DNA of 33,583 nucleotides, from assembly GCA_009840305.1 (NCBI GenBank), contig VXNY01000022.1, positions 78,042 through 111,624 of the forward strand. The letters are read 5' to 3'. This document shows, piece by piece, positions 15,017 to 30,849 of this stretch. How positions within the stretch are numbered: position 1 is the first letter of the stretch; the number at the start of each line of letters is the position of its first letter. The position numbers and the translations under genes are program-made. Source of the DNA: Gammaproteobacteria bacterium. Its GTDB lineage: Bacteria; Pseudomonadota; Gammaproteobacteria; Pseudomonadales; Azotimanducaceae. The notes under the pieces are model-generated. The model was not told the origin of the DNA. It saw nothing but the letters and a program-made list of their open reading frames with translations, and searched no databases.

Positions 15017-16231
15017 ATGTTATCTGTAGAAACCGCCATTAAGAAATTAAGTGCCATCGTACCTCAAATAAAGGAATATGAGACCGTCCCACTACGCGCC
15101 GGCGTCGGCCGCACACTCAAACAATCGATCACCGCACCACGACATTCGCCACCTTTCGATAATTCCGCCATGGATGGCTATGCCCTCTGTGGTCCTAAAC
15201 TAATCAAGCCTGGCACAAGGTTCGAAGTTGTTGGCGAGAGTCGCGCAGGACACCCGTACGGCGAACAGCTCAATGAAGGACAAGCTTGCCGTATTTTCAC
15301 TGGCGCAGTTGTACCAACCGGTGCAACTACTGTAGTTTGTCAAGAAGATGTTTTAAACGGTGAAGGAAATGTCATGGTAAATCGCGAATGTGTCGGCATG
15401 GAGAACATTCGTAAGAAGGGAATGGATGCAAAAAAGGGTATGACCATTGCATCAAATCGGGATGTACTTTCACCCTATTCTATCGGCTGGTGTTCCGCTT
15501 TCGGGATCACAGAAATTGAAGTCGTCCGGCGAATCAAAGTTGCAGTTTTTTCGACAGGGGATGAACTACGCGATCCTGGTCAACAGCTCCAACCAGGGCA
15601 AATTTACGAGTCCAATCGCACCGCCTTAATCGCGCTGTTGCAGTCTAAATCGGTTGAACTCGTGGATTTAGGACAACTCTCCGATAACCCTGATGAGATT
15701 AAACAGAGCCTACTATCCATCGCCAGTGAAGTAGATTTAATCATCACTAGCGGGGGAGTTTCCGTTGGCGAGTCTGACTTTGTGCGTCCCGTGTTAGAAG
15801 AGATTGGAAAGCTCGAATTCTTTAGTCTCGCGCTGAAACCTGGGAAACCTCTCGCTGTAGGAACCATAGAAAGTGCACTGTTTTTTGGTCTCCCAGGGAA
15901 TCCTGTGTCGACCATCGTCACCTATCTACTTTTTGTCGCACCTACTGTTGATTCGATGTCGGGTATCCCATGGCATCGGCCGACTCATTTCAGGGCAAAG
16001 CTTACCAGCAAAATTTCACATAAATCTGGGCGCTGTGAATATCAACGAGGGGTTTTCGTGGGCGATAATCGAGAACTACGAGTCGCAACGACAGGGGATC
16101 AGAGTTCAAATCGTTTGGGTTCTTTTAAAGATTGCAACTGCTTAATAGTCGTGCCCGCGCACCGAGACGACCTAGAGGACGGAGAAATGGTCGATATTCT
16201 GCTACTACCCAATCAAAGAAGTGTGTATTAG
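15017..16231 (+). CDS. moeA: Molybdopterin molybdenumtransferase MoeA
   Basis: Inserts molybdate into adenylylated molybdopterin, the last common step in molybdenum cofactor synthesis. Recognised by SPPFDNSAMDGYAL (about residues 43-56), IFTGAVVPTGATTVV, KVAVFSTGDELRDPG, GQIYESNRTAL, IITSGGVSVGESDFV, LKPGKPLAVG and FFGLPGNPVS. Domains III (MPT-binding, central) and IV (C-terminal) are both present. Length 404 is typical. Its ATG is 6 bases from the tsaB ATG on the other strand, so its promoter must lie within tsaB. No other Mo-cofactor gene is in the window. Confidence 0.95.
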   Translation: MLSVETAIKKLSAIVPQIKEYETVPLRAGVGRTLKQSITAPRHSPPFDNSAMDGYALCGPKLIKPGTRFEVVGESRAGHPYGEQLNEGQACRIFTGAVVPTGATTVVCQEDVLNGEGNVMVNRECVGMENIRKKGMDAKKGMTIASNRDVLSPYSIGWCSAFGITEIEVVRRIKVAVFSTGDELRDPGQQLQPGQIYESNRTALIALLQSKSVELVDLGQLSDNPDEIKQSLLSIASEVDLIITSGGVSVGESDFVRPVLEEIGKLEFFSLALKPGKPLAVGTIESALFFGLPGNPVSTIVTYLLFVAPTVDSMSGIPWHRPTHFRAKLTSKISHKSGRCEYQRGVFVGDNRELRVATTGDQSSNRLGSFKDCNCLIVVPAHRDDLEDGEMVDILLLPNQRSVY

Positions 16232-20264: not shown

Positions 20265-20909
20265 CTAGGCGTTGACCGCGATGAGTCGTTCCCTAATGCG
20301 ACTTCGAATTTCTTCAACCGCGGCATTTCCGTCAACTTCGAAATATCGAACACCACTGTTCTTGTAGTAATCAATGAGTGGAGCAGTTTGTTCCCGGTAA
20401 ACATCTAAACGAGATCGTACCACAGCTTCGCTGTCGTCGTGACGTTGTATTAGTGGCTGCCAAGTCTCGTCATCAAGATTGTCAACTTTTGGTGGATTGA
20501 ATTCGATGTGATAGATTCGACCACTTGCTTCGTGCACTCGACGACCAGAAATTCGACGCACAATGAGTTCATCAGATAGCTGGAGTTCAAAAACAACATC
20601 CACAGAAATGTTCGCTTCATTCATTCCATCGGCTTGTCCGACTGTACGCGGGAATCCATCGAACAAGCAACCAGTTTCACAATCTGGTTGACTTAATCGC
20701 TCTCGTACTAGTCCAAGAATCACCTCATCGGGAACCAGTTCCCCGCGTGCCATTATTCCTTGAGCTTCTAGGCCTAGTTTAGTGCCTTCAGCGATCGCGC
20801 TACGCAGCATGTCGCCGGTGGAAATTTGTGGTATGTTGCGATCCTGACAAATGAACTGCGCCTGTGTGCCCTTACCGGCTCCAGGAGGTCCTAAGAAAAC
20901 TATTCTCAA
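20265..20909 (-). CDS. adk: Adenylate kinase
   Basis: Interconverts ATP + AMP and 2 ADP. P-loop GPPGAGKGTQ at residues 7-16; TGDMLRSAI and GFPRTVGQADGM for AMP binding; the long-form LID starts at GRRVHEASGRIYHIEFNPPK and has no zinc cysteines, as in E. coli. Length 214 is identical to E. coli Adk. The start is TTG with AAGG about ten bases before. It lies 12 bases after relA in the same direction, an unusual place for this gene and perhaps meaningful, since RelA releases AMP. Confidence 0.96.
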   Translation of the reverse strand: MRIVFLGPPGAGKGTQAQFICQDRNIPQISTGDMLRSAIAEGTKLGLEAQGIMARGELVPDEVILGLVRERLSQPDCETGCLFDGFPRTVGQADGMNEANISVDVVFELQLSDELIVRRISGRRVHEASGRIYHIEFNPPKVDNLDDETWQPLIQRHDDSEAVVRSRLDVYREQTAPLIDYYKNSGVRYFEVDGNAAVEEIRSRIRERLIAVNA

Positions 20910-20921
20910 ACTCGCGCGGCC

Positions 20922-22901
20922 TTATTCCGACGGAGTTTCTTCATCGTGTCGTTTCACATCTACAACATCGGGAACCGCGCGTAATCGATTGATCACGTTA
21001 CGCATACTCTCCAAGCCGTCGACTTCAACCTTCAAGCGCAACAAAGCTGGTTCTCCAGGCACCGGTGCGTGGATATGAGCGCCGACGACATTAATAGACA
21101 TAGCAGCCAAAGCAAACGTAATATCTAGTAGCAGTTGTGGCCGGTCAGTTGCGTAGACCGCGAGTTCTTCTACGATCCTTTCTGGTTTGTCGGGTTCGGG
21201 TTGTACTACCTCGGTATCTGTGTCGGCTGGTGTAGCCAAACGCATGGGAAGCAATTCACGAACTGGTTGATCACCGACTGCGACCGCGATATACATTTCT
21301 TCCACATTCGAGTAGTTGAACGCATGGGCGAGCGAATCCATATCGACTTCGATCTTCATTCGCTGACACTCTTCTTCCAACCAGGCCTTCCCTTCACGCG
21401 CGTTGGTGTCTGCTAGTTCTTCACGGAAATAGTTCTGAATGCTTTTACGTACGCGTGAGGTACGTACATACCCTAACTCTTCATCTAACCACTGACGCTG
21501 CGGAGTCGCGCGTGGTGAAGTGATTACCTCCACTACTTGACCAGTTTCTAAAGGTTGATTCAGTGGTTTTTGCTGGCCATTGACTTTTACCCCACAGCAA
21601 TGATTACCGATGTCAGTGTGTATGCGGTAGGCAAAGTCTACCGCAGTTGACCCCGCGGGTAGATCAATAACGTGCCCTTTTGGTGTCGAGATGTAAATAC
21701 GTTCTGGCGCTTCCAAACGTCGGGTAACGTCGATGAATAGATTTTCGGAATACATTTCATCCTGCCAGTGCAGGACTTCTCGCATCCAGTCGATCTTGCC
21801 CATTTTGAATGCTTCATCCACGTCCTTGTAAGCCCAATGGGCACAGACGCCGAACTCAGCTTCTTCGTGCATCTTGTAAGTGCGGATTTGTACTTCAAGA
21901 TTGCGTCCTCGAGGACCTACTACGGCGGTGTGCAATGAACGATAACCGTTCGCTTTGGGGTTCGCGATGTAGTCGTCAAATGCTTCAGAAATCGCGGGCC
22001 AGGAAGTGTGTACAACCCCTAGCACGGAGTAACACTCAGACACTTCGTTAACGACAACTCTCACAGCTTCGGCATCGTATACGGTGTCGAATGAAATCTT
22101 TTTCTCATTCATTTTCCGCCAGATTCCATAGACGTTTTTTGCTCGACCCGATACCTCTGTTTTGAGTCCTCGCCTATTCAATCGCCACTGCAGATCTTCA
22201 CACACTGCTTCGACTTGTTTCTCGCGCTCCACACGACGGTCCTTAAAACCAGCTACGATTTCACGGTAATCATTGGGATGTAAATAGGAGAACGCTAAAT
22301 CTTCAAGCATCCACTTCAATTGCCACACACCAAGGCGGCTGGCTAGCGGACAATAAAACTCCATTACTTCCTTTGCGACTTTCTTTCTATATCGTTCCTC
22401 TTGTTCCTTCGCGAACTGCATCGCGACTAAGCGTTCGGATAACTTCAAAACTGCAACTCGAGGATCATCAATCAGCGCAATCAACATGTGTCGAACGTTC
22501 TTTCTATGATCACGAGATTGTCGATCAAGGAAAGGTGCGCTGGTTTCTGCCACATCGTCTGCTTGCGCCATGCGATCTAACGCGGTAACGAGCTTCAGTA
22601 CGCTTGCTTCCTCAAACTGTACGAGTTTGTCTTCGGACTCGCGATTAGCATAAAAAAGAGCTCCCGCAAGTACGACGGGGGTATCAACGTTCAGTTGCAG
22701 CAATAGATTTGCAAGGTACGATGCTTTTTCTTTGTCAGGTGACTTTGTGACCTGTTTTTCCACTTCTAAAGTAGTCGCCCGATCGCGAGTGTCGCGACGG
22801 ACGAGCGCTGACACCCAATCTTGTGTTTGAAGTTTCTTGAGCTCTTCAGTGTCAAAAATTCTCTTGGGAGTGGTACCTCGCTTACGGAGAGGGGTAAACA
22901 T
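20922..22901 (-). CDS. relA: RelA-type (p)ppGpp synthetase lacking the zinc-finger domain
   Basis: Ribosome-linked stringent-response enzyme moving pyrophosphate from ATP to GDP/GTP. The hydrolase-like domain (about 20-200) lacks the HD motif, as in RelA. The synthetase (about 240-360) shows GRAKNVYGIWRKMNEK, D276 in VYDAEAVR, ANPKANGYRSLHT and EVQIRTYKMHEEAEFGVCAHW. TGS lies at about 402-463 (YISTPKGHVIDLPAGSTAVDFAYRI), a helical part at about 464-550 (QWLDEELGYVRTSRVR) and the ACT domain at 579-650 (DRPQLLLDITFALAAMSINVVG). Between them only a Pro/Asp/Glu-rich linker is found: the cysteine-containing zinc-finger domain, CCQPIPGD in E. coli, is missing. Length 659 against 744 fits that loss. 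The RelA signature EXDD reads AFDD at 307-310. It sits between recO and adk. Confidence 0.9.
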   Translation of the reverse strand: MFTPLRKRGTTPKRIFDTEELKKLQTQDWVSALVRRDTRDRATTLEVEKQVTKSPDKEKASYLANLLLQLNVDTPVVLAGALFYANRESEDKLVQFEEASVLKLVTALDRMAQADDVAETSAPFLDRQSRDHRKNVRHMLIALIDDPRVAVLKLSERLVAMQFAKEQEERYRKKVAKEVMEFYCPLASRLGVWQLKWMLEDLAFSYLHPNDYREIVAGFKDRRVEREKQVEAVCEDLQWRLNRRGLKTEVSGRAKNVYGIWRKMNEKKISFDTVYDAEAVRVVVNEVSECYSVLGVVHTSWPAISEAFDDYIANPKANGYRSLHTAVVGPRGRNLEVQIRTYKMHEEAEFGVCAHWAYKDVDEAFKMGKIDWMREVLHWQDEMYSENLFIDVTRRLEAPERIYISTPKGHVIDLPAGSTAVDFAYRIHTDIGNHCCGVKVNGQQKPLNQPLETGQVVEVITSPRATPQRQWLDEELGYVRTSRVRKSIQNYFREELADTNAREGKAWLEEECQRMKIEVDMDSLAHAFNYSNVEEMYIAVAVGDQPVRELLPMRLATPADTDTEVVQPEPDKPERIVEELAVYATDRPQLLLDITFALAAMSINVVGAHIHAPVPGEPALLRLKVEVDGLESMRNVINRLRAVPDVVDVKRHDEETPSE

Positions 22902-22917: not shown

Positions 22918-23607
22918 TTACACAAAACTTTGAAACAAGGCGCGCGATACCAACGGTTGCTCACCGATAAAGTCCTGTAATGCTGTGCGCAGTACAAGCT
23001 TAGCTGCCTGCCGGGAAGCCGAGGTCGAGTAATCGTCTTTCGCCACGGCCAACAACGAAGATCCTTTCATCCCACCCGTCGCGTTGTTTGGTAATCGTTG
23101 AAAACCTTGTTGAGGGCGGAATTGGTAAGACTGCTTTGGATCAATAGGATTGCCTTGCGGCATTTCACGGTCAAATTGAACGGCTAAACCCAAGGATTCT
23201 AGCAGTCCACGTTCGAAGGATCGTAGAGGTGGTTCTAAGTCTTCGTTGTCTTGTAACGCGTAGAGAGCGCTGAGATAGCGATCGAAGAGCCCAGACACAA
23301 GTTGCTTAGATCGAGTCGTTCGCATGACGAGTTCGTTCAAATACAACCCGGAAAACAGACCCCGACCTGAAAGTCGATAGGTATCGACAGGTTCACAATG
23401 TGATACATTTACGAGTTCGTTTCGACCACGCCAGGAAAGTTCATATTTGACAAAGAGTTCAGCTCGAGACGCAGCCGATGCACTCTGACGCAATACTCCG
23501 CTAACTCGACCATGGCTAGCGGTCAACAATTCCACAATCGTACGTGAATCTGAATAGGGTCGTCGGTGTAACAGGACACCGCGATCTTTGGTACCGGACG
23601 CGATCAT
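22918..23607 (-). CDS. recO: DNA repair protein RecO
   Basis: RecFOR-pathway mediator that anneals strands and loads RecA onto SSB-coated DNA. The N-terminal OB fold shows the family pattern: GVLLHRRPYSDSRTIVELLTASHGRVSGVLRQSAS. The helical part includes GLYLNELVMR and RSFERGLLESLG. The C-terminal zinc cysteines are absent, as in most gammaproteobacterial RecO. Length 229 is usual. The ATG overlaps the era stop (ATGA). In E. coli recO follows era and precedes pdxJ; here relA takes that place. Confidence 0.93.
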   Translation of the reverse strand: MIASGTKDRGVLLHRRPYSDSRTIVELLTASHGRVSGVLRQSASAASRAELFVKYELSWRGRNELVNVSHCEPVDTYRLSGRGLFSGLYLNELVMRTTRSKQLVSGLFDRYLSALYALQDNEDLEPPLRSFERGLLESLGLAVQFDREMPQGNPIDPKQSYQFRPQQGFQRLPNNATGGMKGSSLLAVAKDDYSTSASRQAAKLVLRTALQDFIGEQPLVSRALFQSFV

Positions 23608-24509
23608 TGATATCCGAGCGCCGCTAACTGTACTCTTTCATCGGTCCAACCCGGGCGTGTTTTTACGAGCAAGTTCAAAAAAACTTGACGTTCAAGTAGC
23701 AGTTCTATTGACTTGCGCGCCGCGGTGCCGATGGACTTCAATCGCTCGCCACCCTTCCCGATCACGATACCCTTTTGACTCGTTTTTTCCACGTAGATTA
23801 CTGCATCGATATGCGTGATGTTTTCTTCGTCGGTGTAGTTTTCCACTGCAACCGCGGTGCGGTAAGGTAGTTCATCGCCTAGTTGTCTAACGACCTTTTC
23901 CCGCAGCATTTCTCCGACTAAGAACCGTAACGAACGATCTGTGATTTCATCATCGGGAAACATTTTTGGTTGTGCAGGTAACCACTTGGCAAGCTGTTCA
24001 ACGACGATGTCCAACCCGCGGTTTTTCAATGCTGAAATCGGAATTATTTCTTGGTAGTTGTATTGCTTGCTAGCCTCTTCAAGAACTGGAATGATCCTCG
24101 ACTTGGGGTGTATTTGGTCAACTTTGTTGAGTACGCAGAACACTCGTTCTACTTCGGCAGCTTCAAGGTGTTGAACCACGCGTTGGTCAGCTTCAAGCCA
24201 TCCGGCCGCGTCGATGACATGCAAACAAAGGTCCACTTCCCGTAGTATTCCAATTGCTTGTTGGTTCATGTACCGATTCATCTCGTTATCCGCACCCTTG
24301 TGCAGCTCATGCATACCAGGGGTATCCACGAAAATCATCTGCGTATTGTCTATGGTGTAGATACCCAATATTCGTTGGCGTGTCGTCTGTGGCTTGCGCG
24401 AAGTAATACTGAGTTTGGTTCCCAGAATGTGATTCAATAGCGTCGATTTGCCTACATTGGGACGACCTACAATCGCGACATATCCTGTTCGGTCAGTACT
24501 CGCGTTCAT
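23604..24509 (-). CDS. era: GTPase Era
   Basis: Essential GTPase that binds the 3' end of 16S rRNA and helps 30S maturation. G1 is GRPNVGKST, G2 region KPQTTRQRILGI, G3 DTPGMHEL, G4 NKVDQI, G5 SALKN. A C-terminal KH RNA-binding domain contains VEKTSQKGIVIGKGGERLKSIG. Length 301 equals E. coli Era. It is coupled to rnc and recO by 4-base overlaps at both ends. Confidence 0.97.
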   Translation of the reverse strand: MNASTDRTGYVAIVGRPNVGKSTLLNHILGTKLSITSRKPQTTRQRILGIYTIDNTQMIFVDTPGMHELHKGADNEMNRYMNQQAIGILREVDLCLHVIDAAGWLEADQRVVQHLEAAEVERVFCVLNKVDQIHPKSRIIPVLEEASKQYNYQEIIPISALKNRGLDIVVEQLAKWLPAQPKMFPDDEITDRSLRFLVGEMLREKVVRQLGDELPYRTAVAVENYTDEENITHIDAVIYVEKTSQKGIVIGKGGERLKSIGTAARKSIELLLERQVFLNLLVKTRPGWTDERVQLAALGYQ

Positions 24510-25186
24510 AAGGGAACCAGCCTGAGCATTTCAATTGCTGCAGCGGTCTCGGCTTCTTTTCGCGTCGCACCAGTACCCTCAGTTTTAAGTTCCAAAGCAT
24601 TGACCACACACTGCACATTGACTGTTGCGTCGTTGTGGCGTGCGTTGGTATCGGAACTCATGACTTCGTAGCTTGGGAGCTCACCTAGTTGTTGCATTAA
24701 GCGCTCTTGCAACAGAGTTTTGGGGTGTTTATGGATGGGGAGATGAGGTACGATGTGGGTAAACACTACATCGCGAACTGTCGCTAAGGAACTATCGAGA
24801 TAGACCGCAGCCAAAAGTGCTTCCATTGCGCCAGCAAGGCTGGAATTTGAATGTCCGCCTCCATCTCGTCTTGCGCCTTTACCTAACAGCATACACTCGT
24901 CTAAACCAAGATTACGCGCAATCTCCGCAAGGTGCACATTGTTCTCACATTCAATTCGTTGTTGAGTGAGCGTACCTGGATCGGCAGACGGCAGCGTATG
25001 GAAGAGTTCATCCGACAATATAAGACGCAACACCGAGTCGCCGAGAAATTCCAACCGCACGTTGTTGGTAGCAGAAAAACTGGAATGAGTCAACGCTAAT
25101 TTAAGATACTGAGTGTTCGAAAACGTATATCCGAGTCGCTCTTGTAGTGCTTCGAGAGTCTTGACATCATGCGGATTAGAAGCCAT
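24506..25186 (-). CDS. rnc: Ribonuclease III
   Basis: Double-strand-specific endoribonuclease processing rRNA precursors and other structured RNAs. The catalytic signature is RLEFLGDSVLRLILSDEL with its acidic residues; the second acidic pair is in GAMEALLAAVYLDSS. A C-terminal dsRNA-binding domain starts near HPKTLLQERLMQQLG and ends ATRKEAETAAAIEMLRL. Length 226 matches E. coli. It leads the rnc-era-recO run; lepA and lepB, usually just upstream, are not here. No good ribosome binding site is visible before the ATG. Confidence 0.97.
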   Translation of the reverse strand: MASNPHDVKTLEALQERLGYTFSNTQYLKLALTHSSFSATNNVRLEFLGDSVLRLILSDELFHTLPSADPGTLTQQRIECENNVHLAEIARNLGLDECMLLGKGARRDGGGHSNSSLAGAMEALLAAVYLDSSLATVRDVVFTHIVPHLPIHKHPKTLLQERLMQQLGELPSYEVMSSDTNARHNDATVNVQCVVNALELKTEGTGATRKEAETAAAIEMLRLVPL

Positions 25187-29010: not shown

Positions 29011-30849
29011 TTAATTCGCGAGCCCGTGACTCTTTGCCTTGGCTTCATCATACCACCATGTCGAAGCACCAGTGGTATAGATGGGTCGAGTTTCCGGTTG
29101 CCCAAATTTGTCCCACCAAAGAAATCGAAATGAATTGGTGTGCCACGCCGGAATAACATAGTGGTTCCAGAGCAGAACACGATCGAGTGCGCGACAAACA
29201 ACGATCAGTTCTTCCCTAGTCGTCGCCGCCACGATTTTTTCTATTATTTCATCAACCACCGGGTTTTTAATGCCAATGTGGTTGTCTGTTGCTTTTTGAT
29301 CTGCGGCTTCAGACCCCCAGTCGCTTCGCTGTTCGTTTCCAGGAGAAAGGGACTGCGCGAATACGTGAACGAGCATGTCAAAGTCTCTTTCGTTATTCCG
29401 TCGGTGTATATAGTGTGATTGCTCGACGGTTCTGATGGAAGCCGAGATTCCTACGCGGTTCAAGTTTTCGATAAAAGGCGTGATAATTCTTTCAAAGCCT
29501 GGGGATCCCAAGAGAAATTCAATTTCCATTACTTCGCCAGTTTCTTCGTGCGTGAGTTTGTTGTCTTTAATCTTCCATCCTGCTTCGTCCAACAACATGG
29601 CTGCTTTGCGGAGATTTTCTCTTATATTTCCACTCCCATCGGTGGTGGGCAAAGTGTATTCTTGGGTAAAGACCTCTTCCGGCAGCTGGTCTTTGTATGG
29701 GCTCAAGATATCGTATTCTTCTTCAGATATCAAGCCTCGAGAGGCCATATCGGAGTTTTCGAAGTAGCTTGTAGTGCGTGTGTACTGACCATAGAAGAGT
29801 TTTTCGTTCGACCATTCAAAGTCAAAACAATACGCTAATGCTCGACGCACCCGAGGGTCTTGGAATTTTGTTTTTCGGATATTGAAGATAAACGCTTGCA
29901 TGCCAGTTGGACGTTCATGTCGTAACAGCTCCTTCTTCACTAGTCCCTCATGAAGTGCTGGAAAATCGTATGATGTTGCCCACTTTAAGCTTGAGTTCTC
30001 TAGTCGTACGTCATACTCGCCAGACTTAAATGCTTCAACTGCTACTTCAGCATCTAGATAGTAGTCATATCTAAGGAAGTCAAAGTTGTTTGAACCGACA
30101 TTTACGGGTAGATGTTCGCCCCAGTAGTCCTTGTCTCGTTCAAGTACAACATAACGACCAGCTTCAAATGATGAAATCTTGTAGGGACCGCTTGAAACCG
30201 GAGGATCTAGTGTGGTTTTTTCAAAATCCAGATCTTCCCAATAGGCTTTAGAAAAGACTGTGACTTGACCCACAATTTGAGGAAGTTCACGGTTCGGCGG
30301 TCCGTCGAATTCAAACTTTATAGAGTGCGGGCTGAGTACCACTGCGTCAGTAACATTCTTGTAATAATGCGCGTATCTCGGGTGCCCGTGATCGACGAGC
30401 GTATGAAAGCTAAATTTGACATCTTCAGCAGTAATTGGAGTGCCATCGCTAAACCGCGCTTCTGGTCGCAAATGAAATATCGCAAACGACAAGTCTTCCG
30501 CTACTTCAAGAGATTCTGCGATTAGTCCGTATTGTGCTTGAAAATCGTCTTCAGCAGTCATCATCAGTGACTCGTAAAGATTACCATTTGCCGCTAATCC
30601 TGCAGCGAAGTCTCCTTTCGCGGTGTATGGATTAAAGGTATCGTATCCGCCGATCACGGCAAACCTCATAGTACCACCCTTTGGCGCACTTGGATTTACG
30701 TATTCGAAATGTTCGAATCCAGGGCCGTATTTGGGGGCGTAGCCCAGAGTTGTGGCATGAAGTTTCTTGGTCTTGACTTCATCGCTCATACCCACACAAC
30801 AAAAAAGAACGGCTAAAGCGAGGACAAGTGTGTTTTTTACAATCTTCAT
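29011..30849 (-). CDS. yejA: YejA-type extracellular solute-binding protein
   Basis: Periplasmic SBP_bac_5 receptor feeding peptides (in E. coli microcin C) to YejBE. The signal peptide is MKIVKNTLVLALAVLFCCVGM. Mature blocks include LGYAPKYGPGFEHFEYVNPSAPKGGTMRF, GGYDTFNPYTAKGD, LRPEARFSDGTPITAEDVKFSFHTL, SSGPYKISSFEAGRYVVLERD, and RRALAYCFDFEWSNEKLFYG. Length 612 is typical of YejA. AGAGGAA lies about 12 bases upstream of the ATG. The cysteines at the end of the signal peptide do not form a proper lipobox, so I infer a soluble periplasmic protein. First gene of yejABE; a palindrome lies over the likely promoter. Confidence 0.93.
   Translation of the reverse strand: MKIVKNTLVLALAVLFCCVGMSDEVKTKKLHATTLGYAPKYGPGFEHFEYVNPSAPKGGTMRFAVIGGYDTFNPYTAKGDFAAGLAANGNLYESLMMTAEDDFQAQYGLIAESLEVAEDLSFAIFHLRPEARFSDGTPITAEDVKFSFHTLVDHGHPRYAHYYKNVTDAVVLSPHSIKFEFDGPPNRELPQIVGQVTVFSKAYWEDLDFEKTTLDPPVSSGPYKISSFEAGRYVVLERDKDYWGEHLPVNVGSNNFDFLRYDYYLDAEVAVEAFKSGEYDVRLENSSLKWATSYDFPALHEGLVKKELLRHERPTGMQAFIFNIRKTKFQDPRVRRALAYCFDFEWSNEKLFYGQYTRTTSYFENSDMASRGLISEEEYDILSPYKDQLPEEVFTQEYTLPTTDGSGNIRENLRKAAMLLDEAGWKIKDNKLTHEETGEVMEIEFLLGSPGFERIITPFIENLNRVGISASIRTVEQSHYIHRRNNERDFDMLVHVFAQSLSPGNEQRSDWGSEAADQKATDNHIGIKNPVVDEIIEKIVAATTREELIVVCRALDRVLLWNHYVIPAWHTNSFRFLWWDKFGQPETRPIYTTGASTWWYDEAKAKSHGLAN

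Follow-up and report, generated by a model that had tools for sequence, protein, structure and literature searches.

RelA proteins usually follow a six-domain plan that includes a zinc-finger domain (ZFD, also RIS or CC). To judge from the available text of a 2011 survey, RelAs without ACT or SpoTs without the helical and CC domains are rare exceptions; a RelA lacking the CC/ZFD alone is not among the exceptions given there (PMC3153485). As excerpted in PMC3153485 and PMC7058999, the RelAs of Francisella and Methylotenera naturally miss one C-terminal ribosome-contacting domain, the RRM, and in a reconstituted system the behavior of F. tularensis RelA, which has no RRM/ACT, resembles that of E. 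coli RelA. In the SpoTs of Haemophilus ducreyi and Actinobacillus pleuropneumoniae, an internal deletion removes the CC/ZFD and keeps ACT, the helical domain being gone too (PMC3153485, in excerpt). In Moraxellaceae, RelA makes the alarmone and SpoT[Hs], its synthetase residues lost, only degrades it; on the ZFD of moraxellacean RelA, the excerpts mention HEL-ZFD linkers for RelA generally (PMC3153485, PMC9974481).

On the E. coli ribosome, as described in excerpts of PMC4974054, the docking site of the ZFD in the A-site finger is formed by 23S nucleotides 883-885 and 892-894; the domain also packs against S19, and the RRM contacts A896 of 23S rRNA and L16 through a surface of its own. Crosslinks place the ZFD at U884-C888 and the RRM at U894-A896 (PMC8012599, in excerpt). 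The RIS/ZFD region is reported as the major ribosome-binding domain (PMC4974054), and according to the excerpts of PMC5829649 it is the A-site finger that serves as the key point of affinity between RelA and the ribosome. An initial annotation of the DNA studied here had pointed to the contact between ZFD and A-site finger; it agrees with PMC4974054, where S19 and 16S rRNA are contacted as well.

Here we describe a RelA that has lost the ZFD while retaining the RRM/ACT domain, whereas in Francisella and Methylotenera it is the RRM that was lost. The case also differs from H. ducreyi and A. pleuropneumoniae, where SpoT rather than RelA is affected and the helical domain has gone with the zinc finger, and from Moraxellaceae, in that this RelA has lost its ZFD while the SpoT of the same genome keeps one. 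A natural, strongly conserved and apparently convergent ZFD-less RelA, in a cell with seemingly no other alarmone synthetase, makes it directly testable whether the ZFD is required for ribosome-dependent activation or for pre-loading only. One lineage, moreover, combines ZFD loss in RelA with synthetase loss in SpoT. Our literature search, with most subscription papers and all bioRxiv preprints outside its scope, returned no earlier description of a ZFD-less RelA and no biochemistry of one.

Domain organization and gene neighborhood

The window, a 33,583-nucleotide stretch of the gammaproteobacterial contig VXNY01000022.1, holds on its minus strand an open reading frame with an ATG start (20922-22901) that encodes a RelA ortholog of 659 aa, 85 residues shorter than the 744 aa of E. 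coli RelA, as the initial annotation had counted. Like E. coli RelA (RelA[hS]), it has a pseudo-HD domain, an active synthetase site, and TGS, helical and RRM/ACT domains, in the same order; unlike E. coli RelA, it has no ZFD. The degenerate hydrolase domain (residues 52-193, 22323-22748, minus strand, HD_4 match) lacks the HD motif, with ALFYANRE at the position where the genome's own SpoT has LLHDVIED. The (p)ppGpp synthetase domain follows at residues 252-360 (21822-22148, minus strand; RelA_SpoT, 131.4 bits), its catalytic site intact, with equivalents of E. coli G251, R252, K254, D275 and E335 all present. The TGS domain occupies residues 402-461 (21519-21698, minus strand; Pfam TGS, 81.8 bits) and conserves the histidine equivalent to E. 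coli H432, which in E. coli meets the CCA end of the tRNA. The helical (AH) domain, at about residues 482-554 (21240-21458, minus strand), is assigned by its alignment to E. coli RelA, which runs up to residue 550; a Pfam search of this part gave no match, and a low-confidence structure model has helices here. A Pro/Asp/Glu-rich linker without a single cysteine (about residues 555-578, 21168-21239, minus strand) stands at the site of the absent ZFD in the alignments, and the RRM/ACT domain closes the protein at residues 579-651 (20949-21167, minus strand; ACT_4, 50.7 bits in Pfam). The positions proposed earlier for the end of TGS, the helical domain and the start of ACT agree with those from Pfam and phmmer.

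The protein scores nearer to RelA than to SpoT (PRK10872, 478.6 bits; PRK11092, 337.2 bits). Unlike E. coli RelA, it falls below the NCBIfam cut-offs, with 478.6 against 728 for PRK10872 and 456.6 against 499.2 for TIGR00691. The locus is orthologous as well: the adk flank is common to ZFD-bearing relatives, and the genome has a separate SpoT. The minus-strand gene order is rnc-era-recO-relA-adk, with recO upstream of relA (22918-23607, minus strand, RecO_N and RecO_C in Pfam) and adk downstream (20265-20909, minus strand, ADK match). E. coli relA lies beside rlmD. Within the window's family, relA is flanked by rlmD and adk in many relatives, whether their genus bears a ZFD or not, scored as presence in the flank and not as order. 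Because they are common to both ZFD states, the flanking genes agree with orthology. In the window's lineage recO replaces rlmD in the relA flank; this recO flank (window 22918-25186) is common to genera g1, g7 and g50 and to two of the three g46 genomes read. In family f43 the flanks hold rlmD and mazG.

The alignments demonstrate a clean absence of the ZFD from the predicted protein, with the other domains retained. With phmmer, window residues 67-550 match 66-556 of E. coli RelA (PDB 5iqr) and 581-651 match 670-740; nothing is aligned between these two blocks, and E. coli 557-669 has no counterpart in the window RelA. In a MAFFT alignment, E. coli 557-665 (109 aa) correspond to 26 aa. This alignment comprises 71 RelAs including that of E. 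coli, of which 42 lack the ZFD, 28 have it and one (L050) is unreadable owing to a run of N. The stretch from helical domain to ACT measures 92-109 aa with three or four cysteines in the ZFD-bearing rows and 13-39 aa in the ZFD-less rows, with zero cysteines in the ZFD part; the cysteine motif that the initial annotation reported missing is indeed missing between the helical domain and ACT. Loss of the zinc finger with retention of TGS and ACT is thus what phmmer, MAFFT and Pfam agree on.

Searched to E = 10, the Pfam model RelA_AH_RIS does not match the window RelA. As controls, E. coli RelA scores 56.8 bits and reaches position 180 of the 185 in the profile, and the SpoT of the window genome scores 60.9 bits over two stretches, of which the stronger covers positions 2-89, the AH half. 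Two ZFD-less relatives (L074 and L041) match the AH half only, up to positions 82-87. Even ZFD-bearing relatives match weakly and best in the AH half (L026, 26.4 bits; L064, 14.9 bits); we therefore treat this model as a supporting test only and the alignment as the main one. The structure prediction that had been named as a check gave coil in place of a zinc finger: residues 555-575 are coil, pLDDT is below 50 over 549-574, and beta-alpha elements follow at 576-651, with ACT block means of 61-75 over 571-650. It counts little, because its mean pLDDT is 45.9 and its input consisted of six sequences, five of them 91-96% identical to the first.

Distribution among relatives and origin

Relatives had been proposed as the place to look for the same deletion, and many genomes have it. 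We scanned 200 genomes of the family: 85 of the 150 RelA matches listed show the ZFD-less architecture, contiguous to residue 645 or beyond. Eight, all from genera g34 and g42, end at residues 602-635 and are ambiguous; 57 stop before residue 600, a class that takes in G127 (the genome of L050, with its N run), G173 (a fragment) and G169 (a short frame). Genera sort cleanly, 14 without the ZFD, 14 with it and one mixed, the last solely because G127 has its N run at the ZFD site. ZFD-less RelAs also occur in the single-contig genomes G066, G068, G090, G103, G105 and G144. Outside the family, a scan of 293 genomes of the order found at least six genomes of f43/g79 contiguous to residues 651-655. 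A scan of 370 genomes of the class found no ZFD-less RelA elsewhere among the matches listed, which leaves room for rarer cases. Matches in G318, G390, G391, G264, G335 and G442 reach residues 617-619 in open frames of at least 758 aa, and these six are classed as ZFD-bearing by alignment reach and frame length alone. Recurrence in so many genomes makes the absence neither chance nor an assembly deletion, the latter having been put forward as a possible refutation.

Several family genomes at least 90% complete, for example G042, G053, G055, G061 and G065, had no RelA row and matched at SpoT level only. Beside ZFD-less g79, the f43 genera g95 and g138 had no match at 1e-90 among the matches listed.

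How often was the zinc finger lost? A tree was built from the columns of the HD domain through the helical domain, excluding ZFD, linker and ACT, for 67 rows (L050 and the near-copies L004, L006 and L007 removed), and it requires three state changes in ZFD presence. For the topology test, L005, L014, L015 and L016 were removed in addition. A single origin of all ZFD-less RelAs was rejected (AU p = 2.2e-5), and there were therefore at least two losses. A single origin confined to the family is compatible with the data (p-AU 0.64) and even has the better likelihood; in the free tree, a ZFD-bearing sequence on a long branch (L064, from G060) nests among ZFD-less rows with support of 86. Two independent losses are the simplest reading of these trees, and within the family the ZFD was probably excised once, in an ancestor shared by roughly half the genera sampled.

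The A-site finger and the mode of activation

How might a RelA without its zinc finger be switched on? With a probability of roughly 0.6, we consider it a functional RelA, its ZFD excised, that would still be activated by the ribosome and deacylated tRNA without pre-docking and that would very probably be the sole synthetase of the cell. In such an enzyme the short linker would join the helical domain straight to RRM/ACT. The TGS domain would read the CCA end and the helical domain grip the tRNA, with the RRM seated on the A-site finger and L16, and (p)ppGpp would still be made when the A site holds deacylated tRNA. What would be given up is tRNA-independent pre-docking to bridge B1a, where the ZFD meets the A-site finger, S19 and 16S rRNA; loading would then take place mainly on ribosomes already carrying deacylated tRNA. 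The initial annotation had suggested a different mode of ribosome sensing, which is plausible. We favor a reduced form of the known mode over departure from the ribosome because the TGS, helical and RRM domains are kept and the finger is unshortened in relatives.

Published results, as excerpted, bear on both sides. E. coli cells with the A-site finger deleted show residual RelA activity and are SMG-positive (PMC5829649), and the E. coli RelA ZFD mutants C612G, D637R and C638F complement a relA deletion on SMG (PMC6719525); we count both as support for activation without the ZFD. ZFD changes that disrupt docking counteract the toxicity of E. coli RelA-deltaRRM, and the toxicity of B. subtilis Rel is slight when RRM and ZFD are both absent (both PMC7058999), so loss of the ZFD could cost most of the ribosome-driven activity. 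The RRM itself also counts against the preferred reading. Its contact residues R670 and Q705-Q706 are conserved in neither the ZFD-less nor the ZFD-bearing group, and it is more variable in ZFD-less RelAs (mean identity 0.30 versus 0.40).

Was the ribosomal docking site altered together with the enzyme? Helix 38 was aligned for E. coli and 43 of the 45 genomes with any 23S match, the partial sequences of G009 and G024 being excluded; the window genome itself gave no 23S match, and the finger data come from its relatives. A finger shortened along with the ZFD is rejected, helix 38 being 106-109 nt long where the ZFD is absent and 106-108 nt where it is present. The RRM-contact nucleotides 894-896 are unchanged in all 43. 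All 14 ZFD-bearing genomes, counting E. coli, have AUC(C/U)C in the apical loop (nucleotides 886-890), as do 7 of the 22 that lack the ZFD and 5 of the 8 that have no RelA row. This loop drift, seen in the L111-L161 set, is suggestive. It belongs essentially to one clade and is absent from the second loss (G241 and G396), and the close relatives G010 and G015 differ from each other in the loop, where misbinning is possible in draft genomes. For its confinement to one clade and the disagreement of G010 and G015, we do not accept it as proof of a released constraint.

A rather unlikely alternative is that the enzyme has left the ribosome and is controlled in solution, for example through autoinhibition within the molecule or through a small ligand or partner protein acting on the RRM/ACT domain thus freed. 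The domain it lacks is the major ribosome-binding one (PMC4974054, in excerpt) and its RRM contact residues vary; the departures from the loop consensus, in 15 of 22 ZFD-less genomes and 3 of 8 without a RelA row against none of the 14 with a ZFD, look like a released constraint. Yet finger length and nucleotides 894-896 persist, and the loop change is one clade's, is missing from G241 and G396 and comes from draft genomes whose rRNA can be misbinned. TGS identity within the ZFD-less group also stays near the ZFD-bearing level (0.576 versus 0.632), and the TGS histidine is kept in every ZFD-less row. That histidine is no proof of tRNA sensing, because 27 of 30 SpoTs also retain H432.

Common to activation on tRNA-loaded ribosomes and to control in solution would be that a lineage with alarmone synthesis and breakdown divided between RelA and SpoT has also uncoupled its RelA from the idle ribosome; the enzyme would load only with deacylated tRNA or work off the ribosome with RRM/ACT as its sensor, the finger tip having drifted later. 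We regard this broader proposal as possible though doubtful; loading only together with deacylated tRNA would reverse the sequence of events that the excerpts of PMC5829649 report for E. coli RelA.

Selection on relA and the SpoT partner

Is the shortened gene on its way out? The initial annotation had offered weakened stringent control as one outcome, and a relaxed or decaying RelA in the course of being lost is improbable. Some family genomes do have a SpoT-level match only (e.g. G042, G055, G061 and G065), and each of the five domains compared varies somewhat more among ZFD-less RelAs. Against this, dN/dS is lower for relA than for four neighboring genes, 0.022-0.026 against five relatives (L034-L038; dS versus L038 is near saturation), compared with 0.040-0.111 for adk, 0.064-0.096 for recO, 0.034-0.050 for era and 0.054-0.096 for rnc. 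The equivalents of G251, R252, K254, D275 and E335 are invariant in all 39 ZFD-less rows of the tree set. These substitution patterns demonstrate purifying selection on a ZFD-less relA that is not decaying. Of the 39 rows, 31 have an intact EFDD motif; the window RelA reads AFDD, a difference to which we attach no meaning.

The SpoT of the window's genus, which has lost the synthetase residues that RelA keeps, likewise speaks against weakened control. In the window genome, SpoT (L002, 752 aa) keeps its HD motif and ZFD, and its G-loop glycine and catalytic glutamate are replaced. All 17 readable SpoTs of the genus (the 18th, from G012, is a fragment and was left out) keep HD and have lost both G251, which became Y in 16 and V in one, and E335, which became K in 16 and N in one. 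By its residues, the SpoT of the window genome would be a hydrolase only, like that of Moraxellaceae. In 14 SpoTs from other ZFD-less genomes, E335 is kept in 13 and is D in G066, and G251 is kept in seven, with S in five, A in one and P in one. Both residues are kept in all 11 SpoTs from ZFD-bearing genomes and in the three from f43; the loci read outside the window's genus include L082-L092. From the G251 losses outside the genus we conclude that drift of the SpoT synthetase site has begun elsewhere in the family's ZFD-less clade.

The window genome has two RelA_SpoT domains, those of RelA and SpoT, with no third seen in a draft that is 95.6% complete. Because the SpoT synthetase residues are lost and no third domain was seen, this genome probably has no (p)ppGpp synthetase other than the ZFD-less RelA. 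A further one could be missed, since the genome is a draft and three genus members have a third domain: two RelA_SpoT domains occur in 15 of the 18 genomes of the genus, and a third in G005, G009 and G017 (G005:C4:4914-5303, G009:C61:8969-9355 and G017:C20:4614-4931). The open frame around the third domain is about 1000 aa long in two of these genomes and 256 aa long in the other.

Could the genus SpoT, with its own ZFD, or a separate small protein take over the missing function in trans? The SpoT ZFD motif is intact in 17 of 17 cases in the genus, but according to the excerpts of PMC9974481 A. baumannii has a hydrolase-only SpoT that is monomeric and ribosome-independent, and we consider such complementation very unlikely. 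An assembly or frameshift artefact, for which the draft state of the genome might speak, is refuted by recurrence in relatives and can be set aside almost entirely, with 85 of the 150 matches listed alike, single-contig genomes included, and a continuous frame under purifying selection.

Two further genes of the window, both unrelated to relA, were identified with Pfam: a MoeA protein is encoded at 15017-16231 and a family-5 extracellular solute-binding protein at 29011-30849.
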